DNA of 64,000 bases. Source: Phycisphaerales bacterium UBA2421 (lineage in GTDB: Bacteria; Planctomycetota; Phycisphaerae; Tepidisphaerales; Tepidisphaeraceae). The notes under the pieces were generated by a model. That model was given only the letters and a program-made list of their open reading frames with translations. It had not been told where the DNA came from and did no database searches. Position numbers and translations under genes: made by a program. Position 1 is the stretch's first letter; every line of letters begins with the position of its first letter. The DNA lies in contig DDRH01000051.1 in assembly GCA_002343075.1 (NCBI GenBank), positions 169,111 through 233,110 on the forward strand, given 5' to 3'. Positions 1,391 to 9,093 of the stretch are shown here, piece after piece.

Positions 1391-3505
1391 TCATCTGTCG
1401 GAGGACGAGATAGATGACTCGCTATCTAACATCTTGTCATTACTGTATTTATCGGACGTGGACGGCCGGCTCGGAAGCGAATACTGGCCCCCGGAAGCGT
1501 GGTGACCATTTACAATAATTCCCAAGACTCGGCATCCAACACTAAGCAAACCATCCCGAGCGGCGGCGGCGGAACGGCGGTTGCTTGCGCCGCTGCGGAT
1601 CACCAGGATCGCTCCTTCGCATGCAGCAGCGATGATGCGTGCGTCGTCGGCGGCATCAATGGCGGGAGAATCGATCAGCAGCACGTCGTACCGACTTGAA
1701 AGGCTCTCCAAGACATCGGTAAACATTGATGTGTTCAGCAACTCCGAAGCATTCGCGGGCACTTCGCCTGCTGGCATCACGTGCAGATGCTCAATTGTCG
1801 TCCTGCGGATGGCACGATCGTTCGCCTCACTGCTCGAAAGCAAATCGACAAGCCCTACTGCATCGCTCACGCCAAAAATACGATGCTGGACCGGATCGCG
1901 CAAATTGGCGTCGATCAACAACACATTCTTGCCGCTCTTAGCGAGCGCAATGGCCAGATTGCTGGCAACAGTTGATTTCCCCGCCATCTGCTCGGGCGAA
2001 GCAACCAGGACCCGCTTCGTCGCGGTCTCACTCACCGAGAACTGCAGCGAGGTTCGGGCGGCACGAAAGGCCTCCGCCGCGGGGGTACCGCCGTCGGCAT
2101 GAACGATCCATCCAAAGGACTCCAAAGATCGCCCTCCCGCCGCTGTCGGAATCGCCCCGATCACCGGTAGCCCCAAGGCGGCCCGCGCGCCGCCTGGTGA
2201 GACGAGTCGTGGGTCGAGATTTTCTTTTAGCAGGGCAAAAACCCCGCCAACCAACAACCCCAGTATCCCCGTAATGGGCAAGACACTGCTGGCTTTGGGA
2301 GAAAAATTGCCTTCATCCACCGCCGCCGCATCAAGAACCTGGGTTGTTATGAGGCCGGCGTCAACAGTCAGGCTGATGTCCTTCACCTTCCTGTCGAGTT
2401 CGCCTAGTGTGGCGGTGATCCGCTCTTTCTTCCGCTCAAGCTCGCGAAGCTGATTCACCTGCAGCCGCTGCGAAGATGCAGCCGCGGTCTCGATCGTCAG
2501 CGACTTACGAATCTCTTCTTCTTGTTTGCTGGCATTGGCCCATCGCTGCTTCATGGCACCAACAAACTGCAGATTGAGCTCATTGAGACGGTCCTGCGTT
2601 TGTCGAATCGCCGGATGGCTCGGCAAGTAAGTGCGCTTCAGGCTCGTGAGTTTGCGCTGGGCTTCCGTTGCTTCAGCTTTGAGCACTGCAATGTCACTCT
2701 CGCTAATGACACCCGCAGGAATGTGCGGATCAACCGTCGCCGGGTCGGTAATCCCTATCGCCGAGGCCGCTGCGGTAAAATCGGTCTTTCGGTTGATTGA
2801 CTCCAATTCGGCTTTGGTCAGCGCATCGCTCAAGCTATCCAGCCTTCGATTGGCGGCTGCACTGGCGGCGTCCTCAGTGGCGGCAGTGGGGTTCTGAGCC
2901 CTAAACTCGGCCATCTGCGCTTCAATGCCCGTCATCTCAATGCGAAGTCGGGATTGTTCATCTGCGAAGGCCTCGCGAAGTGCCTGAAAATCGTCTTTGC
3001 GCTCCTTGTTCTGCCGCGCTTCATAGGCTTCAGTGACGCTCGTGAGCAGCTTCACGCCCTCCTCTGGGTATGGCGTCCGCAGGCTGAGCGTGATCGTCTC
3101 ATCCTGCTTGCCAGCAGTCACCTCGAGATGGTCTTTAAGATACGACGATTTGTTCTTGACGCCACGAAATGTCTGCCAGTCATTTGAACCCGGAACGCTC
3201 GCCGCCAGCGCGAGCACCGGCGTGGATCGCATGATTTGCGCCTGAGTGGCATGAAACAGTTCGTTCGTCCTGCCAACGGCCGAGTTGCTCGCTGGCTGCG
3301 ACGCATCGCCCGGTTGCGCGCCGGATTGCTTAACAATGAGCTTGCTACTCACCTGATACTCTCGCTGCGTCAAAAGCAGATATACCCCGCCGACGATCAG
3401 CCCAAGGATGGCGAAGGCAAAAACGGTGCCGCGCCTGCGCAGCAGAATGCGGGTAATCGATGAATCATTTGCGGTGGCCAGGTTTGCTGCAGTCACGCGG
3501 ATCAT
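1391..3505 (-). CDS. Polysaccharide co-polymerase / BY-type tyrosine autokinase (Wzc-like)
   Basis: Predicted to control chain length and export of an exopolysaccharide through cycles of tyrosine autophosphorylation. The 704-residue protein joins a Wzz-type transporter half and a cytoplasmic P-loop kinase half in one chain, as in proteobacterial Wzc. Two membrane segments are visible, at about 27-46 and just before the kinase (the VLPITGILGLLVGGVFALL stretch near 410-430), with a long periplasmic coiled-coil-rich part between them. Kinase motifs are Walker A SPEQMAGKST (GKST starts at 509), Walker A' LLIDANLRD (about 529-537) and Walker B LLIDSPAID (about 609-617). The C-terminal tail is Ser/Thr-rich with only two tyrosines (about 675 and 687), a small cluster for this family. 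It lies upstream of the sugar transferase and is transcribed away from the ubiquitin-like operon, sharing a 261-bp control region with it. Confidence 0.93.
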   Translation of the reverse strand: MIRVTAANLATANDSSITRILLRRRGTVFAFAILGLIVGGVYLLLTQREYQVSSKLIVKQSGAQPGDASQPASNSAVGRTNELFHATQAQIMRSTPVLALAASVPGSNDWQTFRGVKNKSSYLKDHLEVTAGKQDETITLSLRTPYPEEGVKLLTSVTEAYEARQNKERKDDFQALREAFADEQSRLRIEMTGIEAQMAEFRAQNPTAATEDAASAAANRRLDSLSDALTKAELESINRKTDFTAAASAIGITDPATVDPHIPAGVISESDIAVLKAEATEAQRKLTSLKRTYLPSHPAIRQTQDRLNELNLQFVGAMKQRWANASKQEEEIRKSLTIETAAASSQRLQVNQLRELERKKERITATLGELDRKVKDISLTVDAGLITTQVLDAAAVDEGNFSPKASSVLPITGILGLLVGGVFALLKENLDPRLVSPGGARAALGLPVIGAIPTAAGGRSLESFGWIVHADGGTPAAEAFRAARTSLQFSVSETATKRVLVASPEQMAGKSTVASNLAIALAKSGKNVLLIDANLRDPVQHRIFGVSDAVGLVDLLSSSEANDRAIRRTTIEHLHVMPAGEVPANASELLNTSMFTDVLESLSSRYDVLLIDSPAIDAADDARIIAAACEGAILVIRSGASNRRSAAAARDGLLSVGCRVLGIIVNGHHASGGQYSLPSRPSTSDKYSNDKMLDSESSISSSDR

Positions 3506-3578
3506 CTCCTGCTAAGCCGTGTTGGCTGTGAGTCGGGAGGCACGCTAGTAGTGGACAAGCTCCCGGACAAGTTTATAC

Positions 3579-3593
3579 CCGATGAATCATCGG
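3579..3593. promoter_or_regulatory. Palindrome in the divergent control region (candidate operator)
   Basis: CCGATGA, one central A, then TCATCGG: a perfect 7-bp inverted repeat in the 261-bp region between the divergently transcribed autokinase gene and ubiquitin-like operon. A TATAAA-like hexamer for the minus strand (3572-3577) lies beside it. Size and position suit a dimeric regulator, but no regulator gene is adjacent and a chance palindrome cannot be excluded. Confidence 0.3.
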
Positions 3594-3633
3594 AAATACG
3601 AACCAGATCGTCACTTTAATCAGGGCAACACGC

Positions 3634-3663
3634 TTGCCACTCTGGACGAATTGTGGATTATCT
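3634..3663 (+). promoter_or_regulatory. Possible sigma-70-type promoter of the ubiquitin-like operon
   Basis: TTGCCA (3634-3639) and TTATCT (3658-3663) are separated by 18 bp, about 100 bp upstream of the first gene of the operon. The match to a housekeeping promoter is only moderate. An AGGAG at 3750-3754 precedes the ATG at 3767 by 12 nt, a long spacing for a ribosome-binding site. Confidence 0.3.
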
Positions 3664-3766
3664 GACGAAGGAACCCGCCCGTATGCCCGTTTGCGATCGG
3701 CACGCGTTACGATGGACCGTTTTCAGCGTCTGAACCGCGCTCCGCGGATAGGAGAAAATCGTCGAA

Positions 3767-4099
3767 ATGGGAATGCTCAACGTACAGATCTGGGACGCCA
3801 CCGGTAGCAAGCGTCAGGAAGTGCAAATGCCCGACGATGCGCCAATCAACCGCATCCTTGCCGTGCTGCTGGAAAAAATGAACTTTCCCCAAAACGGGCC
3901 TGACGGACAACTGCTTAGCTACAAGTTTCACCACCGCAACAGCGGTAAACAGTTGCTCGACGATCAAACCCTCTCACAAGGGGGCGTGAAAGATGGCGAT
4001 GTCATCCGACTGCAGCCCGAAATCACCGCGGGTACTCAGGTTCCAGATTCGGGCGTTGCTCCTGGAGATCACCGCCGGAAGAGTCTTTGCGGCGATTGA
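3767..4099 (+). CDS. Ubiquitin-like beta-grasp modifier (YukD/EsaB-like)
   Basis: Likely the protein modifier of a bacterial ubiquitin-like conjugation system. The 110-residue product has a beta-grasp layout: an N-terminal strand pair (residues 3-21, VQIWDATGSKRQEVQMP), a central helix (27-38, INRILAVLLEKM), then the KFHHRNSGKQLLDDQTLSQGG region (53-73) and the final strand GDVIRLQPE (77-85), where ubiquitin-fold proteins have L-x-D-x-x-T-L followed by G-(V/I)-x-x-G-D. The fold ends near G89, followed by a 21-residue polar tail containing C108, so the protein does not end in Gly-Gly; a JAMM protease two genes downstream could trim it. It is the first gene of the operon and its stop overlaps the preferred E1 start by 13 nt. 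The fold assignment is by pattern; conjugation is inferred from the neighbours. Confidence 0.8.
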   Translation: MGMLNVQIWDATGSKRQEVQMPDDAPINRILAVLLEKMNFPQNGPDGQLLSYKFHHRNSGKQLLDDQTLSQGGVKDGDVIRLQPEITAGTQVPDSGVAPGDHRRKSLCGD

Positions 4100-5409
4100 A
4101 CTGGCAGGCGACCGAGCCTGAACGGCCCGCGCCGCATGCCCCGCAGTTGGGCGCATCATCCCAGTACCAATTCGTCACCCATGCCGTGCAATCAGCCACT
4201 GCCATGCCCGACCCGATCACAATCAATCTCGATGAGGATGCCGACCGATTCGCACGGTTCAAGCTGATTGGTTGGTGGGATCAGCAAAAACTCCGCAATG
4301 CCCGGGTCATCGTCGTCGGTGCGGGAGCGCTCGGCAATGAGATTATCAAGAACCTTGCGCTACTCGGCGTAGGCAACATCCTCATCTGCGACAAAGATCG
4401 CATCGAGCACTCCAATCTGTCACGTTCAATCCTCTATCGTGCGTGCGATGCAGGGAAGCAGAAGGCCCTCGTCGCTGCCGAGGCCGCGCGGGCGATTTAT
4501 CCTGAGTGCAATGTGCACGCCTTCGACGGCGACATCGTGCACGACCTCGGCTTGGGCGTGTTTCGCTGGGCGGATGTCGTACTTGGCGGGCTGGACAACC
4601 GGCTGGCCCGGCTGACGATTAACCGAAACTGCTATCGTGTGGGTAAACCCTGGATCGACGGCGCGATTGAACAGATTCAGGGCATCGCGCGCGTCTTTAC
4701 TCCGCCGGAAGGGGCCTGTTACGAATGCACCATGAGCCAGCGAGATTGGCAGGTGCTGCAAAACCGCCGGTCGTGCAATCTGCTTTCCCGGACCGAAATG
4801 GAGGGCGGCAAGACTCCAACGACGCCAACGATCAGTTCAATCATCGCAGGTCTCCAATGCCAGGAGGCGCTAAAGTTGATTCACGGCCTGCCAACCCTCG
4901 CGGGCAAGGGGTGGATGTTTGATGGGTTGTCCAGCGAGGCATTTCAAACGGAGTATCAGCGCAAACACGACTGTCTGAGTCATGACACAATCGATCGCGT
5001 GATCGAGATTGAGGGGTCATCACACGAGATTTTGGTCGGAGACGTGTTGGCAATTGCTCAGCGAGAAACCGGGCAGGCCGACGTTTGCCTGGAACTTACC
5101 CGGGACGTCCTCGAAAAACTGGTGTGTCCGAAGTGTAGCCGAGAAGAGGCGATGCTGACATCGCTCGGGAAGGTGAAGTCTGATCGCGCAGCGTGTCAAC
5201 ACTGCGAAGGTGTCGAACGCCATGTCGTCACGTTCAACCGCATCGATGCTCGATCGCCCTATCTCGGTCGCACCCTGGCGCAGCTTGGCCTGCCGGCGAT
5301 GGATATCCTCGTGGCGCGCGGTCCGGGCGAGACGATCGGCATTGCGTGTATCGCGGACGCACCAGCGATATTGGGCGGGCTTTGGGAAGGTGGCCTCGAA
5401 TTCGAATGA
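4087..5409 (+). CDS. E1-like ubiquitin-activating enzyme (ThiF/MoeB/E1 superfamily)
   Basis: Predicted to adenylate the ubiquitin-like protein's C-terminus and carry it as a thioester. The adenylation domain (about 52-270) has the nucleotide loop VGAGALGN (G78, G80, G83), the arginine finger N110-L-S-R113, K124 and K126, and D170 in GGLDN. C211/C214 (CYEC) match one half of the MoeB-type zinc site, and C230 is the candidate thiol cysteine (aligned with the Cys before the crossover loop). The usual second CxxC after the domain is absent; instead a separate zinc ribbon C347-x2-C350/C370-x2-C373 sits in a C-terminal extension of unknown fold. I chose the TTG at 4087 because GGAAG lies 5 nt upstream; the ATG at 4204 would start just before the conserved domain and is a real alternative. 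The gene overlaps the next one by 4 nt. Confidence 0.93.
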   Translation: MRRLNWQATEPERPAPHAPQLGASSQYQFVTHAVQSATAMPDPITINLDEDADRFARFKLIGWWDQQKLRNARVIVVGAGALGNEIIKNLALLGVGNILICDKDRIEHSNLSRSILYRACDAGKQKALVAAEAARAIYPECNVHAFDGDIVHDLGLGVFRWADVVLGGLDNRLARLTINRNCYRVGKPWIDGAIEQIQGIARVFTPPEGACYECTMSQRDWQVLQNRRSCNLLSRTEMEGGKTPTTPTISSIIAGLQCQEALKLIHGLPTLAGKGWMFDGLSSEAFQTEYQRKHDCLSHDTIDRVIEIEGSSHEILVGDVLAIAQRETGQADVCLELTRDVLEKLVCPKCSREEAMLTSLGKVKSDRAACQHCEGVERHVVTFNRIDARSPYLGRTLAQLGLPAMDILVARGPGETIGIACIADAPAILGGLWEGGLEFE

Positions 5410-6212
5410 GCGACACGACTTCTGAACCGCCATCAACAGAGACGAATTCGCCGACGCCAGGTGCTTCGGCAGGGTCGTTGCCGGATGTATCTGGCATTTC
5501 CGTGGACGAGTGGCCCGCCCGCGAGCTAACTTTGCACAGCGGTACCCGTTCGGATGGGTTTCAAGTTGTCTATCGCCGGGACGTACTCGACTCCATTCAC
5601 TCGCACGGGCAGTCCAATACGAAGGTCGAAGTCTGCGGGGTGCTGGTCGGACGCGTCTATCGCGATTCTGCGGGCACCTATCTCCTCGTCGATGCGTGCA
5701 TCGCAGGCGAAGCGGCGTCGCATGCGGCCAATGTCACTTTCACGGGGGCAACCTGGAGCAAGATCCACGATGAAATGGACCGGCTGTATCCCGAAGAGCG
5801 TATCGTTGGCTGGTATCACACACACCCGGCATTTGGCATTTTTCTGTCCGAAATGGATGTTTTCATTCAAGCGAATTTCTTCAACCTGCCGTGGCAGGTT
5901 GCAATGGTGTACGATCCGATCGGCGGTGATGAGGGCACATTTGTCTGGCGAAATGGGATGCCAACGCGCGAGCCGGTACTTTGCGAGCCTGCGCCGCCGG
6001 CCACCGAGGAACCAACATCCCTGAAGGCAGATGAGTTTGCAGCATTGGAAGACAGGCTGAGCGTGTTTGATCGTGTTTTTGTGGTCATGCTGATGCTGTT
6101 CGTTGCAATTTTGCTGGTGTTGCTCATTATCTACGAACTTCGCTCGACCGCCCCCCCACCACCGGGGCCTGTCGGCTGGCTGCAATGGAGTGCAACTGCC
6201 CATGGAACGTGA
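5406..6212 (+). CDS. Membrane-anchored JAMM/MPN isopeptidase (deubiquitinase-like)
   Basis: Likely a zinc metalloprotease that matures the ubiquitin-like protein or removes it from targets. The 268-residue protein starts at ATG 5406, overlapping the E1 stop by 4 nt. After a Pro/Ser/Thr-rich N-terminus, the MPN domain (about 50-185) carries the full JAMM signature: E75 (VEVCG), H138-T-H140 in WYHTHPAFG, S148 and D151 with exact HxH-x7-S-x2-D spacing. A single hydrophobic helix (about 224-243, VFVVMLMLFVAILLVLLIIY) near the C-terminus anchors it, with the catalytic domain presumably in the cytoplasm. It is therefore catalytically intact and tethered, unlike most bacterial JAB proteins in ubiquitin-like loci, which are soluble. 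The next gene starts 11 nt before its stop. Confidence 0.93.
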   Translation: MSDTTSEPPSTETNSPTPGASAGSLPDVSGISVDEWPARELTLHSGTRSDGFQVVYRRDVLDSIHSHGQSNTKVEVCGVLVGRVYRDSAGTYLLVDACIAGEAASHAANVTFTGATWSKIHDEMDRLYPEERIVGWYHTHPAFGIFLSEMDVFIQANFFNLPWQVAMVYDPIGGDEGTFVWRNGMPTREPVLCEPAPPATEEPTSLKADEFAALEDRLSVFDRVFVVMLMLFVAILLVLLIIYELRSTAPPPPGPVGWLQWSATAHGT

Positions 6213-7443
6213 ACCGCTGACCATCGAGTGGAAGGACCTCACCGCCCCCAACGTCGACGCCAAGCTGCAGCAGATGGCGGCTGTGAAGTCGACATTGAAT
6301 CATTATGACGCTGCGCAAGAAATCGTGGGCACAAAGCCCCCTCGAGCCTTCTGGTACAACACCCCCTTCGTCCTCGGGCTTTTCGGCCTGATTGGTGGCA
6401 TTCTCGGTTGGGGATTCGGCGAAGTACTGCACTTCCGACCCGACGCTCGGTCTGAGGCGAGGCAGGTCATCGCCGACTACGAGACCGTACGAGAAGAAAT
6501 GCGTTTGGGCGACGTGCGCGCCGAATTCGCCCGTGACACGCTGGCAGCAATCAAGCGCGATTATTCCTCCAATCCGTACTTCGCTCTCTACGTTGACGAT
6601 ACGCTTTCGGCAGCGCAGCGAGACGATCGCATGCAAGAGCTTGACGCGCGTGATAATTGGAACAATTTCCTAGCCAACGTGCTGTTCTTTGGGTTTAGTG
6701 GGATGATGATTGCCGTGTGTCTGGCAATGGCCGAGCCGCTTGTCGAACGAAACATGAACCGCGCGGCAATTAATGGCGTAATCGGCGCGGTGCTCGGAAT
6801 GACGGGTGGGGTCGCGGTCGCGCTGATGATTCCCAAGCTGCACGCCGCTGTGCTGGGCGACCTCGCAGAGCAGTCGACTCGTCAGCAGGAGATGATTGCA
6901 AAGGCAGTTGAATGGGGCGTGCTTGGACTGTTTCTTTCGGCTGCGCCGGGTGTGTTGATGGGAAGTTTCAAGCGACTGGGAATCGGCGTTGTCGGCGGCC
7001 TGATCGGCGGTGTGATCGGGGGGATTTTGTTTGTGCCGCTGGCTGAGAAATACAGCGAGCATCTCAGCCGGTTCATTGGCATTGTAACAATCGGCGTCGT
7101 GTCGGGGGTGGCCAGCGGGATCCTTGAAGCGGCCGTAAAATCCGGCTGGCTTAAGGTCACCGCGGGACTGATTGCAGGCAAACAGTTTGTGCTCTATCGA
7201 AATCCGACCTACATCGGTGCACACCCGTCGTGCCACATTTTCCTGTGGAAGGACGCGCAAGTGGGCAAGAGGCACGCCGCACTACATCTGGTCGGCGGCG
7301 GGATAGAATTGGAAAACCTGCCGCTTGGCGCCGGCACGATGGTAAACGGCAAGCCCATCCAGCGCATGCGGCTCCGCAATGGAGACCGCATTCAGGTGGG
7401 TCGGACGACGTTTGAGTTTCACGAGAAACAGCGAACTCGTTAG
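6202..7443 (+). CDS. Polytopic membrane protein with C-terminal FHA domain
   Basis: Function unknown; a membrane scaffold or sensor of the ubiquitin-like operon. I start it at ATG 6202 (MEREPLTIEW), which overlaps the JAMM stop; the upstream frame belongs to the neighbour. Of 413 residues, about 50-320 hold six likely membrane segments (near 52-75, 153-178, 188-210, 236-254, 260-280, 291-310), several Gly-rich (GVVGGLIGGVIGGI) as in channel or scaffold helices, with a soluble loop at about 80-150. The FHA domain (about 325-408) has KRHA (356-359) in place of S-R-x-H and NG (382-383), but the phosphothreonine-binding GR motif reads GA (339-340), so peptide binding may be weakened. A 76-bp gap separates it from the next gene. 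Confidence 0.85.
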   Translation: MEREPLTIEWKDLTAPNVDAKLQQMAAVKSTLNHYDAAQEIVGTKPPRAFWYNTPFVLGLFGLIGGILGWGFGEVLHFRPDARSEARQVIADYETVREEMRLGDVRAEFARDTLAAIKRDYSSNPYFALYVDDTLSAAQRDDRMQELDARDNWNNFLANVLFFGFSGMMIAVCLAMAEPLVERNMNRAAINGVIGAVLGMTGGVAVALMIPKLHAAVLGDLAEQSTRQQEMIAKAVEWGVLGLFLSAAPGVLMGSFKRLGIGVVGGLIGGVIGGILFVPLAEKYSEHLSRFIGIVTIGVVSGVASGILEAAVKSGWLKVTAGLIAGKQFVLYRNPTYIGAHPSCHIFLWKDAQVGKRHAALHLVGGGIELENLPLGAGTMVNGKPIQRMRLRNGDRIQVGRTTFEFHEKQRTR

Positions 7444-7519
7444 ACTCACGGGAGGTCGTGATGATGTGGCAGGTTTCGCTCTGTTGGATGAATCGTGGCC
7501 AACTTGAATCGCGGGCGAC

Positions 7520-8467
7520 ATGTCAATGCTGATAGTCGAACATGCTGGCAAACGTTGGTCTACCCCTGTGAATGGCCGGGTGTGGATCGGTCGTGATAAC
7601 GAGTGCCAGATTATCATCAGCCATCCGATTGTTTCGCGACAACACGCCTGGGTCGAGCCGGCGGGAGACGCTGCGGTAACGGTCGGCGATAATGATAGTC
7701 GGAATGGTGTGCTCATCGCCGGGGACAAGCTTGCCGAACCGCGCCTGCTGCGAGACGGCGATATCTTCCAAGTCGGCCCGGCGACAATTGCATTTCACGC
7801 GCGCGATCCTGAACTGGAAATCGAAGCGCCGAGCGTCGACGCCGCCGAGGTGGCTGGCGTCATTTTCGCCTGTGAGTGCGGCGCGCGACTCTGGGCGCCC
7901 CGCGGCGCGGCAGGTTCGAGCACGATCTGCCCAAAATGCAGGCGAAGCGTGAAATGCCCCGGCGAACTCCCCCCGCCGCCCACACGGCATCAGATTTGCG
8001 GCGTTTGTCAGTGGAAGATCCAATTCAGCGAAGCCTCCACAACTTGCCCGGCCTGCGGCGTCGCCTATCACGCTGACTGCTGGCGAGAAAACAAAGGCTG
8101 TGCGGCCTACGGGTGTTCTCAGGTAAACGTGCTGGCAGAGAAACTAGCTGACGGCACCGACGTGGAAATTGATCAAGTCGATCAGACAGGCCTCGAGTTG
8201 CTGGCAACCCCGCCCGAACCACGAGCGGTTGAGATTCCGCTCCTGGCTGCGGCGGTGGTGGCGTCGCTTGTTGGGCTGCTCGGCTTCGGCGCGCCTGCTT
8301 TTATTGTCGGCGTGATAGCGTTTGGCTACCTACTCGTACGCGGCGGGCAGAAGCGCATGCTGCTTCTGGCCGCGGTCGTGGTGTCGCTCCTCGGCACCGC
8401 CGCGGGAGTATTGGCAAGCCTTTACTGGTGGATGCAGATTTTTCCGGGACAGTTGATCGGCAAATGA
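7520..8467 (+). CDS. FHA / zinc-ribbon / prokaryotic RING-like membrane protein (candidate E3)
   Basis: Best candidate for the E3 ligase of the operon. Domains in the 315 residues: an FHA domain (1-95) with all reader motifs intact (G24-R25, S39-R40-Q-H42, N62-G63); a zinc ribbon (C118, C120, C137, C140); a RING-like treble-clef module with eight ligands, C160-x2-C163, C176-x2-C179, H184-x2-C187, C194-x4-C199; then three hydrophobic segments (about 238-256, 258-273, 279-303). The ligand spacing and the ENKGCAAYGC ending match the prokaryotic RING family (Prok-RING type) found in planctomycete signalling proteins. A phosphothreonine reader fused to a RING-like module on a membrane anchor, next to E1 and E2, suggests recruitment of phosphorylated substrates. 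That role is inference; a purely structural zinc module is the alternative. It overlaps the E2 gene by 4 nt. Confidence 0.9.
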   Translation: MSMLIVEHAGKRWSTPVNGRVWIGRDNECQIIISHPIVSRQHAWVEPAGDAAVTVGDNDSRNGVLIAGDKLAEPRLLRDGDIFQVGPATIAFHARDPELEIEAPSVDAAEVAGVIFACECGARLWAPRGAAGSSTICPKCRRSVKCPGELPPPPTRHQICGVCQWKIQFSEASTTCPACGVAYHADCWRENKGCAAYGCSQVNVLAEKLADGTDVEIDQVDQTGLELLATPPEPRAVEIPLLAAAVVASLVGLLGFGAPAFIVGVIAFGYLLVRGGQKRMLLLAAVVVSLLGTAAGVLASLYWWMQIFPGQLIGK

Positions 8468-9093
8468 TCTCTTTTAAGTGTAAACACTGCGAGAAGCGGT
8501 TCGACGTGCCCGATGCCTATGCTGGCCGACAAGCCAAATGCAAGGGATGTGGCAACACGCTTACAGTTCCTGTTCCCTCGCAGACGACCGGACAAAGGCC
8601 CCAAAGCTCAGTTGATTTGAAAATGTCCCCGCGCGCCCGGCGTCTGCTTGCCGATGCTGAGTCGATCACGCAGATTTTCGGCAATTGCCCACATATACGT
8701 ATCGTCAAGCAATCGGGGAGCCCCCCGGATGGGTATGAGATTGAGTATAGCGTGAAGAGCCTGGCGCGCGATTCAAAGGGCAAACCCATCGAGCGAATGG
8801 ACCACCGCGTGCTCATTCAACTCACGAGCGATTATCCGAGACTCAGCCCGAAATGCTCTATGCTCACGCCTGCGTTTCATCCTAACATTGATGAAAGCAC
8901 GATCTGCGTGGGCGACCACTGGACAGCCGGAGAGAGACTCACCGACCTGATTGTGCGAATCGCGGAGATGCTAGGCTATCAAGCGTATAATATCCGCAGC
9001 CCGCTGGACGGCGAAGCGGCTATGTGGGCCGACCTAAACCAGAAAAAACTCCCCCTGGACCCGCGCAACATGCGACCGAGCACGATGGAATGA
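8464..9093 (+). CDS. E2-like ubiquitin-conjugating enzyme (UBC fold) with N-terminal zinc ribbon
   Basis: Predicted to receive the ubiquitin-like protein from E1 as a thioester and pass it to substrates. The 209-residue protein has an N-terminal zinc ribbon (C6-x2-C9 and C26-x2-C29, of the FxCxxC...AGRxxKCxGC type common in planctomycetes), a linker, then a UBC domain (about 53-195). It shows the strand region DHRVLIQLTSDYPRLSPK, the E2 hallmark F138-H-P-N141, catalytic C148 in TICVGDHW, and the helix LTDLIVRIAEMLGYQAYN. N141 is the expected oxyanion Asn; the HPN-to-Cys spacing is one residue shorter than in eukaryotic Ubc proteins. The ATG at 8464 overlaps the previous stop (ATGA), and its own stop overlaps the methyltransferase start the same way, implying one transcript. 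Confidence 0.92.
   Translation: MISFKCKHCEKRFDVPDAYAGRQAKCKGCGNTLTVPVPSQTTGQRPQSSVDLKMSPRARRLLADAESITQIFGNCPHIRIVKQSGSPPDGYEIEYSVKSLARDSKGKPIERMDHRVLIQLTSDYPRLSPKCSMLTPAFHPNIDESTICVGDHWTAGERLTDLIVRIAEMLGYQAYNIRSPLDGEAAMWADLNQKKLPLDPRNMRPSTME

Follow-up and report, generated by a model that had tools for sequence, protein, structure and literature searches.

Can a bacterium run a complete ubiquitin-like conjugation cycle at its own membrane? The question is raised by six consecutive genes at positions 3767 to 9093 of a 64,000-nucleotide stretch (the window; positions 169,111 to 233,110 of contig DDRH01000051.1) from Phycisphaerales bacterium UBA2421, a member of the Tepidisphaeraceae (the family, below) whose genome assembly comprises 4.47 Mb in 67 contigs. 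The genes encode, in order, a ubiquitin-like modifier (Ubl), an E1-type activating enzyme, a JAMM peptidase, an FHA membrane protein, an FHA-RING protein, and an E2-type conjugating enzyme. We conclude, with a probability of roughly three in four, that they constitute one cascade likely to attach the Ubl through its C-terminal glycine to proteins of the cytoplasmic membrane, and to remove it again; all mechanistic steps proposed here are drawn from sequences and structural models.

Six genes in one direction

The initial annotation of the window had proposed a full ubiquitin-like conjugation set encoded by six genes in one direction, and this is borne out by Pfam matches and active-site conservation. 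All six frames could be verified on the + strand, with overlaps of 4 nt (E1/JAMM), 11 nt (JAMM/FHA membrane protein), and 4 nt (FHA-RING/E2), and a 76-bp gap between the two FHA genes, as annotated. The 13-nt overlap given for the Ubl and E1 genes did not survive: it hinges on a TTG start at 4087, which we rejected because no conserved sequence lies ahead of the ATG at 4204. Since conservation in relatives begins only past that ATG, E1 more likely starts there, leaving a gap of 104 nt, and its residues are renumbered from 4204 (the former R113 and C230 are R74 and C191). Start codons of the relatives used in alignments were picked by script, with ATG preferred.

The modifier and its C-terminal end

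The first frame (3767..4099; 110 residues, with a second ATG at 3773) encodes a Ubl of the YukD/EsaB type, matching Pfam YukD with 44.1 bits (cut-off 27; 3.7e-11), and it is the only YukD match in the genome. When the PDB was searched with the alignment of Ubl sequences, ubiquitin and polyubiquitin chains were the only entries listed, though no single stretch of them passed. Among the best 120 of 976 relatives, 119 carry the motif EITAG and the remaining one ESTAG; the protein ends right at this motif in 28 of the 120, and the others continue with tails of 1 to 57 residues of varied sequence, some of them alike, with Ala as the first tail residue in 36 of 91. At this place PEITAG is read in 21 of 25 Ubl matches taken from fetched loci, and VVAG or FVAG in the other 4, which are distant.

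Ubiquitin-type precursors have a fixed end followed by disposable sequence. The fixed EITAG end and the variable, dispensable tails thus point to a Ubl that is conjugable through a single-glycine end laid bare by trimming. The Ubl gene is confirmed as annotated, but its 110-residue product is probably a precursor; from the EITAG/tail pattern, the mature protein (...RLQPEITAG) is predicted to end at Gly89 (codon 4031..4033) after loss of a 21-residue tail (4034..4096), a segment that varies in length and sequence among relatives. A gene for an Rpn11-like JAMM enzyme lies two genes downstream, and PMC5654768 reports on an archaeal pro-ubiquitin being cleaved by Rpn11; we infer that the window enzyme would trim the Ubl at Gly89.

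Alternatively, the Ubl might act in the manner of YukD, helping to assemble a membrane complex non-covalently, as happens in type VII secretion systems (T7SS), with the E1- and E2-like proteins serving as regulators. It does belong to the same family as T7SS YukD/EsaB, which an excerpt of PMC1779556 reports as not conjugated, it weakly matches EccD, and one WXG100 match lies elsewhere in the genome beside a 1307-residue frame that looks FtsK-like by eye. However, none of the six is a secretion gene; the WXG100 locus belongs to a different contig, while the genome's only YukD sits in the operon; the Ubl travels with E2; its conserved end and disposable tails fit processing; and the active sites of E1, E2, and JAMM are intact. 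We consider this explanation quite improbable, and a T7SS-type role in particular was rejected because the sole WXG100 match in the genome and the only YukD are on different contigs. The WXG100 locus itself (L120, G000:C54), with its putative FtsK-type ATPase, is possibly a type VII-like locus lacking YukD.

E1, JAMM, and E2 enzymes

The E1 (4204..5409) matches Pfam ThiF at 2.3e-56, above the curated cut-off, over one stretch only. Its nucleotide and cysteine positions are kept in 16 to 17 of 17 aligned sequences (the single gap being a truncated row), and the catalytic-cysteine candidate C191 in all 17, window included; the conserved positions also comprise C172, C175, C257, and H260, which form a Cys/His set, and a Cys4 set made up of C308, C311, C331, and C334. 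Its PDB relatives by profile are led by UBA7 (3.5e-34) and UBA1 (5.4e-33), ahead of ThiF (2.2e-26) and MoeB (1.1e-22). An AlphaFold2 model of 401 residues (mean confidence score, pLDDT, 83) has a single adenylation domain at residues 14-261 and can be aligned as far as residues 382-385 with chains of SAE2, UBA1, UBA6, and UBA7 (286-307 residues aligned, root-mean-square deviation [rmsd] 3.8-6.4), whereas with other E1 chains the alignment stops at 260-301; with some SUMO and ubiquitin E1s the modelled E1 aligns past the adenylation domain and into the region of their E2-recruiting ubiquitin-fold domains. These comparisons bear on the idea of a sulphur-carrier system of ThiS/ThiF or MoaD/MoeB type, in which the E1 would only make a thiocarboxylate. 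The adenylation domain does match ThiF/MoeB models and structures, but all such NCBIfam scores fall below their cut-offs, with some Ubl E1s the alignment of the model extends about 80 residues further, and E2, RING, and JAMM proteins would have no role to play, so that we regard the idea as barely tenable.

The JAMM/MPN+ peptidase (5406..6212) matches Pfam JAB at 2e-13, above the cut-off, with Rpn11 as its best PDB relative (5.9e-19). Its catalytic residues E75, H138, H140, S148, and D151 are present in 18 of 18 aligned sequences, window included, and hydropathy places a C-terminal transmembrane (TM)-like segment (about 6075-6131 in the window) in 16 of the 18.

The E2 (8464..9093) combines a zinc ribbon with a UBC fold, matches Pfam UQ_con at 1.9e-9, above the cut-off, and is the only UQ_con match in the genome; its best PDB relative by profile is 2e2c, an E2 (3.6e-9). 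The HPN motif and catalytic Cys148 (8905..8907) are invariant in 30 of 30 sequences (the window and 29 of the best 120 relatives listed). The motifs reported earlier as intact were therefore correctly identified, the E1 numbering apart.

FHA and RING proteins with predicted membrane anchors

Membrane anchoring of the JAMM enzyme, the FHA protein, and the FHA-RING protein, as annotated, is likewise predicted from hydropathy. The fourth gene (6202..7443) encodes a protein with six TM segments and, at its C-terminus, an FHA fold; TM1 is followed by a helical loop of about 60-70 residues. The six-TM region has no Pfam match, and structure comparison returned FHA domains. The fifth (7520..8467) encodes an FHA domain (about 7583-7777), a zinc ribbon, a RING (about 7997-8116), and a TM segment, in what we predict to be an E3. 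Both FHA matches exceed the Pfam cut-off (3.4e-11 in the six-TM protein, 4.2e-14 in the RING protein).

Phosphothreonine binding by FHA domains uses an Arg after a Gly and a Ser before a His. In the six-TM protein the Arg is found in 0 of 17 rows and the Ser in 3 of 17, whereas in the RING protein R25 is found in 12 of 13 and S39 in 13 of 13 rows with the domain; the residues are retained only in the FHA domain of the RING protein. The link to phosphothreonine signaling previously drawn from two FHA domains accordingly holds for one of them, and the notion that both are phosphothreonine readers was rejected because the FHA domain of the six-TM protein has lost the Arg and mostly the Ser. Profile relatives of the RING protein in the PDB are bacterial FHA proteins (2.5e-15; GarA, 4.3e-15) and, weakly, the FHA domain of RNF8 (5.1e-4).

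All eight RING ligands (C160, C163, C176, C179, H184, C187, C194, and C199) occur in 18 of 18 aligned proteins, window included, in an alignment that omits L057 (a near copy) and L060 (a fragment) from 18 listed frames and adds a second frame from L068. Prok-RING_1 matches 17 of these 18 at E<=0.01, again with the window included, and it exceeds the Pfam cut-off in relatives from L099, L105, L109, and L118.

Distribution and gene order

Among 25 genomes of the same family, 18 have a strong E2 match (E<=2.4e-54) and 17 a Ubl, all 17 of which also have the E2; G003, with only a weak match at residues 114-204 (2.8e-6), was scored as lacking E2. Across 392 genomes of the phylum, an E2 match reaching the catalytic part was found in at least 36, a Ubl in at least 29, and both in at least 28, with at most 7 (E2) and 13 candidates scored per genome, so that some matches may be missed. 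The zinc ribbon at E2 residues 1-40 matches many other proteins, which inflates simple counts of E2 matches; the raw tallies of 47/61 and 46/392 include matches to the zinc ribbon alone.

Synteny is conserved, the gene order recurring in the family and, with changes, in the phylum. Ten of 20 regions contain all six genes in order; in five, E2 lies close to the end of its contig and is the only one of the six seen; and L031, L032, L036, L042, and L045 are incomplete or split. The operon is also present in the complete genome of Planctomycetes bacterium syqfu (L057, where the six-TM frame is split in two) and in a Blastopirellula metagenome-assembled genome (MAG; L069), and in another order, cut by a contig end, in a Victivallales MAG (L067). 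In three distant loci (L114, L116, and L117), profiles built from the family detected no FHA or RING genes near E1, Ubl, and E2, and distant FHA or RING proteins may escape such profiles.

Other E2 relatives stand apart. L113 and L115 contain E2 relatives with no other cascade gene detected in the fetched stretch, and in G001, G009, and G012 E2-like matches of 24-27% identity lie within open frames 848-984 codons long, which may encode E2 fusions of a different type.

RING-protease frames beside E2

Ten of 47 loci searched (L101-L105, L107-L110, and L045) have, next to E2, a single frame with both RING and trypsin matches, the Pfam assignment having been made on examples that include L105 and L109; in five more (L063, L068, L069, L112, and the contig-cut L106), a trypsin-like gene lies in or beside the operon. 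These loci lend some credit to the possibility that the same cascade serves membrane-protein quality control, the tag handing clients over to a membrane protease. Neither the window operon nor the searched main operons of the family contain a trypsin match, however, and among the family loci searched the only one is at L045, the second E2 locus of G009; a quality-control role is thus possible, though we think it unlikely, for the system in the window. Coupling to a 20S proteasome was rejected, as the only PF00227 match in the genome is a 187-residue frame that we read as HslV-like, and this too speaks against quality control.

A recurrent neighbor cluster was also seen in 8 loci (L102-L104 and L106-L110), directly past E2 in 7 of them; the two members searched, at L104 and L110, are DUF2752 proteins.

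An exopolysaccharide autokinase gene as divergent neighbor

Divergent from the operon, and outside the cascade, the window encodes an exopolysaccharide tyrosine autokinase (1391..3505, - strand; Wzz/GNVR plus kinase) that matches NCBIfam TIGR01007 with 172 bits (cut-off 108); beyond it lie genes for a sugar transferase and then a glycosyltransferase. The intergenic region between the two divergent units (3506..3766) is a possible shared promoter region, where one weak sigma-70-like match was found, and scans for promoters and terminators gave no more matches than shuffled sequences.

This linkage, absent from the initial annotation, recurs: among the 18 family genomes with a Ubl, 15, from 12 genera, have the autokinase gene placed divergently next to the Ubl gene (for example L122, L123, L125, and L128-L130). 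These genomes are not independent, and the neighbor or operon is cut by a contig end at L041, L122, and L130. As exceptions, the autokinase gene lies about 5 kb upstream in G017 and about 4 kb beyond E2 in G009, and none was found in the fetched stretches of G005; G015, a genome without a Ubl match, has it next to the JAMM gene, both genes being read from one strand. The 3' flank, taken as a control, is not conserved: a homologous stretch within 5 kb beyond E2 was found in only 5 of 120 locus pairs (16 loci), three of the pairs being within one genus. The window genome has three tyrosine autokinases of this type above the cut-off. We read the placement as co-regulation with exopolysaccharide assembly within the family; that the exopolysaccharide machinery is a direct client would be a guess.

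Comparison with known systems

Burroughs, Iyer and Aravind are said to have described, in 2011, operons from Actinobacteria, Planctomycetes, and Acidobacteria, and to have proposed conjugation of YukD-like Ubls and a ubiquitin-fold domain in their E1s. The class reportedly brings together a YukD-type Ubl, E1, E2, JAB, and Prok-RING_1 in one operon; the same set is found here, with a Prok-RING_1 match that stays just under the Pfam cut-off and a C-terminal E1 domain that is only a candidate ubiquitin-fold domain. Planctomycete operons of such a kind are credited to that report in a passage of PMC4197634. Given the 2011 report, the class of system was already known by prediction, and the window operon is less novel than first claimed; what was claimed rightly is that it differs from Bil. 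The ITAG signature, the loss of FHA residues, the exopolysaccharide linkage, and the RING-trypsin fusions were found here, and parts of this may already have been published. Our survey of the open-licence literature, mostly judged by title, turned up no experimental description of the operon.

RNF8 and CHFR are eukaryotic FHA-RING ligases, and as in the fifth gene product here FHA and RING are joined in one protein; the window protein differs in its predicted membrane anchor and in the zinc ribbon between FHA and RING, and the likeness is probably convergent. The modifier CsUb of the archaeon Caldiarchaeum subterraneum ends in di-glycine, as against the conserved AG (ITAG) end here. The CsUb cascade, as described in passages of PMC5654768, likewise clusters the five classes, with an Rpn11-like JAMM, a tailed pro-modifier, and a RING (srfp); three predicted membrane-anchored proteins and FHA domains set the window operon apart from it.

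Two bacterial systems raise the question of antiphage defense, in which phage proteins would be the targets. Bub uses oxyester chemistry and a serine peptidase; Bil (bacterial ISG15-like) has Ubl, E1, E2, and JAB in one operon, as here. Part of PMC13373217 presents Bil as an antiphage system in which bacteria conjugate a Ubl, and Bub as a putative one, with protection against phage not yet shown; Bub comprises bacterial Ubl/E1/E2/peptidase sets (excerpt of PMC12687455) to which we liken the operon by description, not by sequence. The patchy presence of the operon would also suit defense, 7 of the 25 family genomes lacking both the Ubl and a strong E2 match. Against defense, none of the PADLOC models (2023 set) is hit at E<=0.01 by the Ubl, the RING protein, or the E2, the E1 hits generic E1-E2 models and reaches no better than 4.2e-7 with BilD, the JAMM enzyme matches only generic JAB models, and the family locus is tied to an exopolysaccharide gene, not to varied 5' neighbors. 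An antiphage role therefore seems to us rather improbable. Membership in Bil was rejected outright: BilD combines an inactive adenylation domain with an active one (as described in part of PMC11354881), whereas the E1 here has one, and neither the Ubl nor the E2 has a PADLOC match.

A proposed membrane-held cascade and the points that weigh against it

In the cascade that we favor, i) the JAMM enzyme, anchored by a helix at its C-terminus, would cut the Ubl tail back to ...ITAG; ii) E1 would adenylate Gly89 and load the Ubl on Cys191; iii) the putative ubiquitin-fold-like domain at the C-terminus of E1 would hand the Ubl to Cys148 of E2; iv) the E3 would be the FHA-RING protein, likewise held in the membrane, which would bind E2 through its RING and use its FHA domain to recruit clients that one of the genome's Ser/Thr kinases has phosphorylated on threonine; v) the six-TM protein may scaffold the complex in the membrane or act as a sensor, with its FHA fold as a platform for docking that does not depend on phosphate; and vi) the same JAMM enzyme would also deconjugate. 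In the family, clients might most likely be sought in the envelope and exopolysaccharide machinery, a lead given by gene order only.

Several points weigh against this cascade or against parts of it. The conserved Ubl end is AG rather than GG, and the sole NCBIfam match of the Ubl is to the T7SS protein EccD, far below the cut-off. For several E1 structures the alignment with the E1 model ends as early as residues 260-301 or 345, and the rmsd of the long alignments is 3.8-7.7, the C-terminal domain being compared only within the whole model. Prok-RING_1 matches the window protein at 3e-6 with 27.5 bits, 1.6 bits under the cut-off of 29.1. Classical RING E3s carry a linchpin residue; here the last ligand pair is C-x4-C with no conserved basic residue behind it, so that the classical linchpin is missing. 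Five of the 18 aligned RING proteins have no FHA match and Asn62 of the FHA domain is retained in only 7 of 14 rows, hence phospho-recruitment is not universal. G015 (L031) has JAMM, FHA protein, RING, and E2 with no E1 or Ubl beside them and no Ubl match in the genome, which could reflect either an assembly gap or loss. Outside the family, none of 27 loci (not all from distinct genomes, and some stretches short) shows the exopolysaccharide neighbor, and no demonstration of conjugation by such an operon was found in the open-licence literature.

A bolder and, as a whole, doubtful extension is that kinase-marked threonines of the envelope are read by the membrane FHA-RING ligase, much as by RNF8 or CHFR, and that attachment of the ITAG modifier then switches exopolysaccharide assembly on or off in Tepidisphaeraceae, while elsewhere in planctomycetes a RING-protease fusion destroys the tagged protein.

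Significance

If our conclusion is correct, the 2011 prediction for planctomycetes becomes directly testable, as one can now name the likely mature end of the modifier, the enzyme predicted to trim it, the active cysteines, and, in exopolysaccharide assembly, a first candidate for the client machinery; and a branch of true modifiers would be added to the YukD family, whose members in secretion systems are reported not to be conjugated. The FHA-RING protein provides a bacterial architecture to set beside the eukaryotic RNF8 and CHFR, and RING-protease fusions may couple tagging to proteolysis without a 20S proteasome. Bacteria such as this one would then run the whole E1-E2-E3-deubiquitinase cycle on their own membrane, and tie it to phosphorylation.

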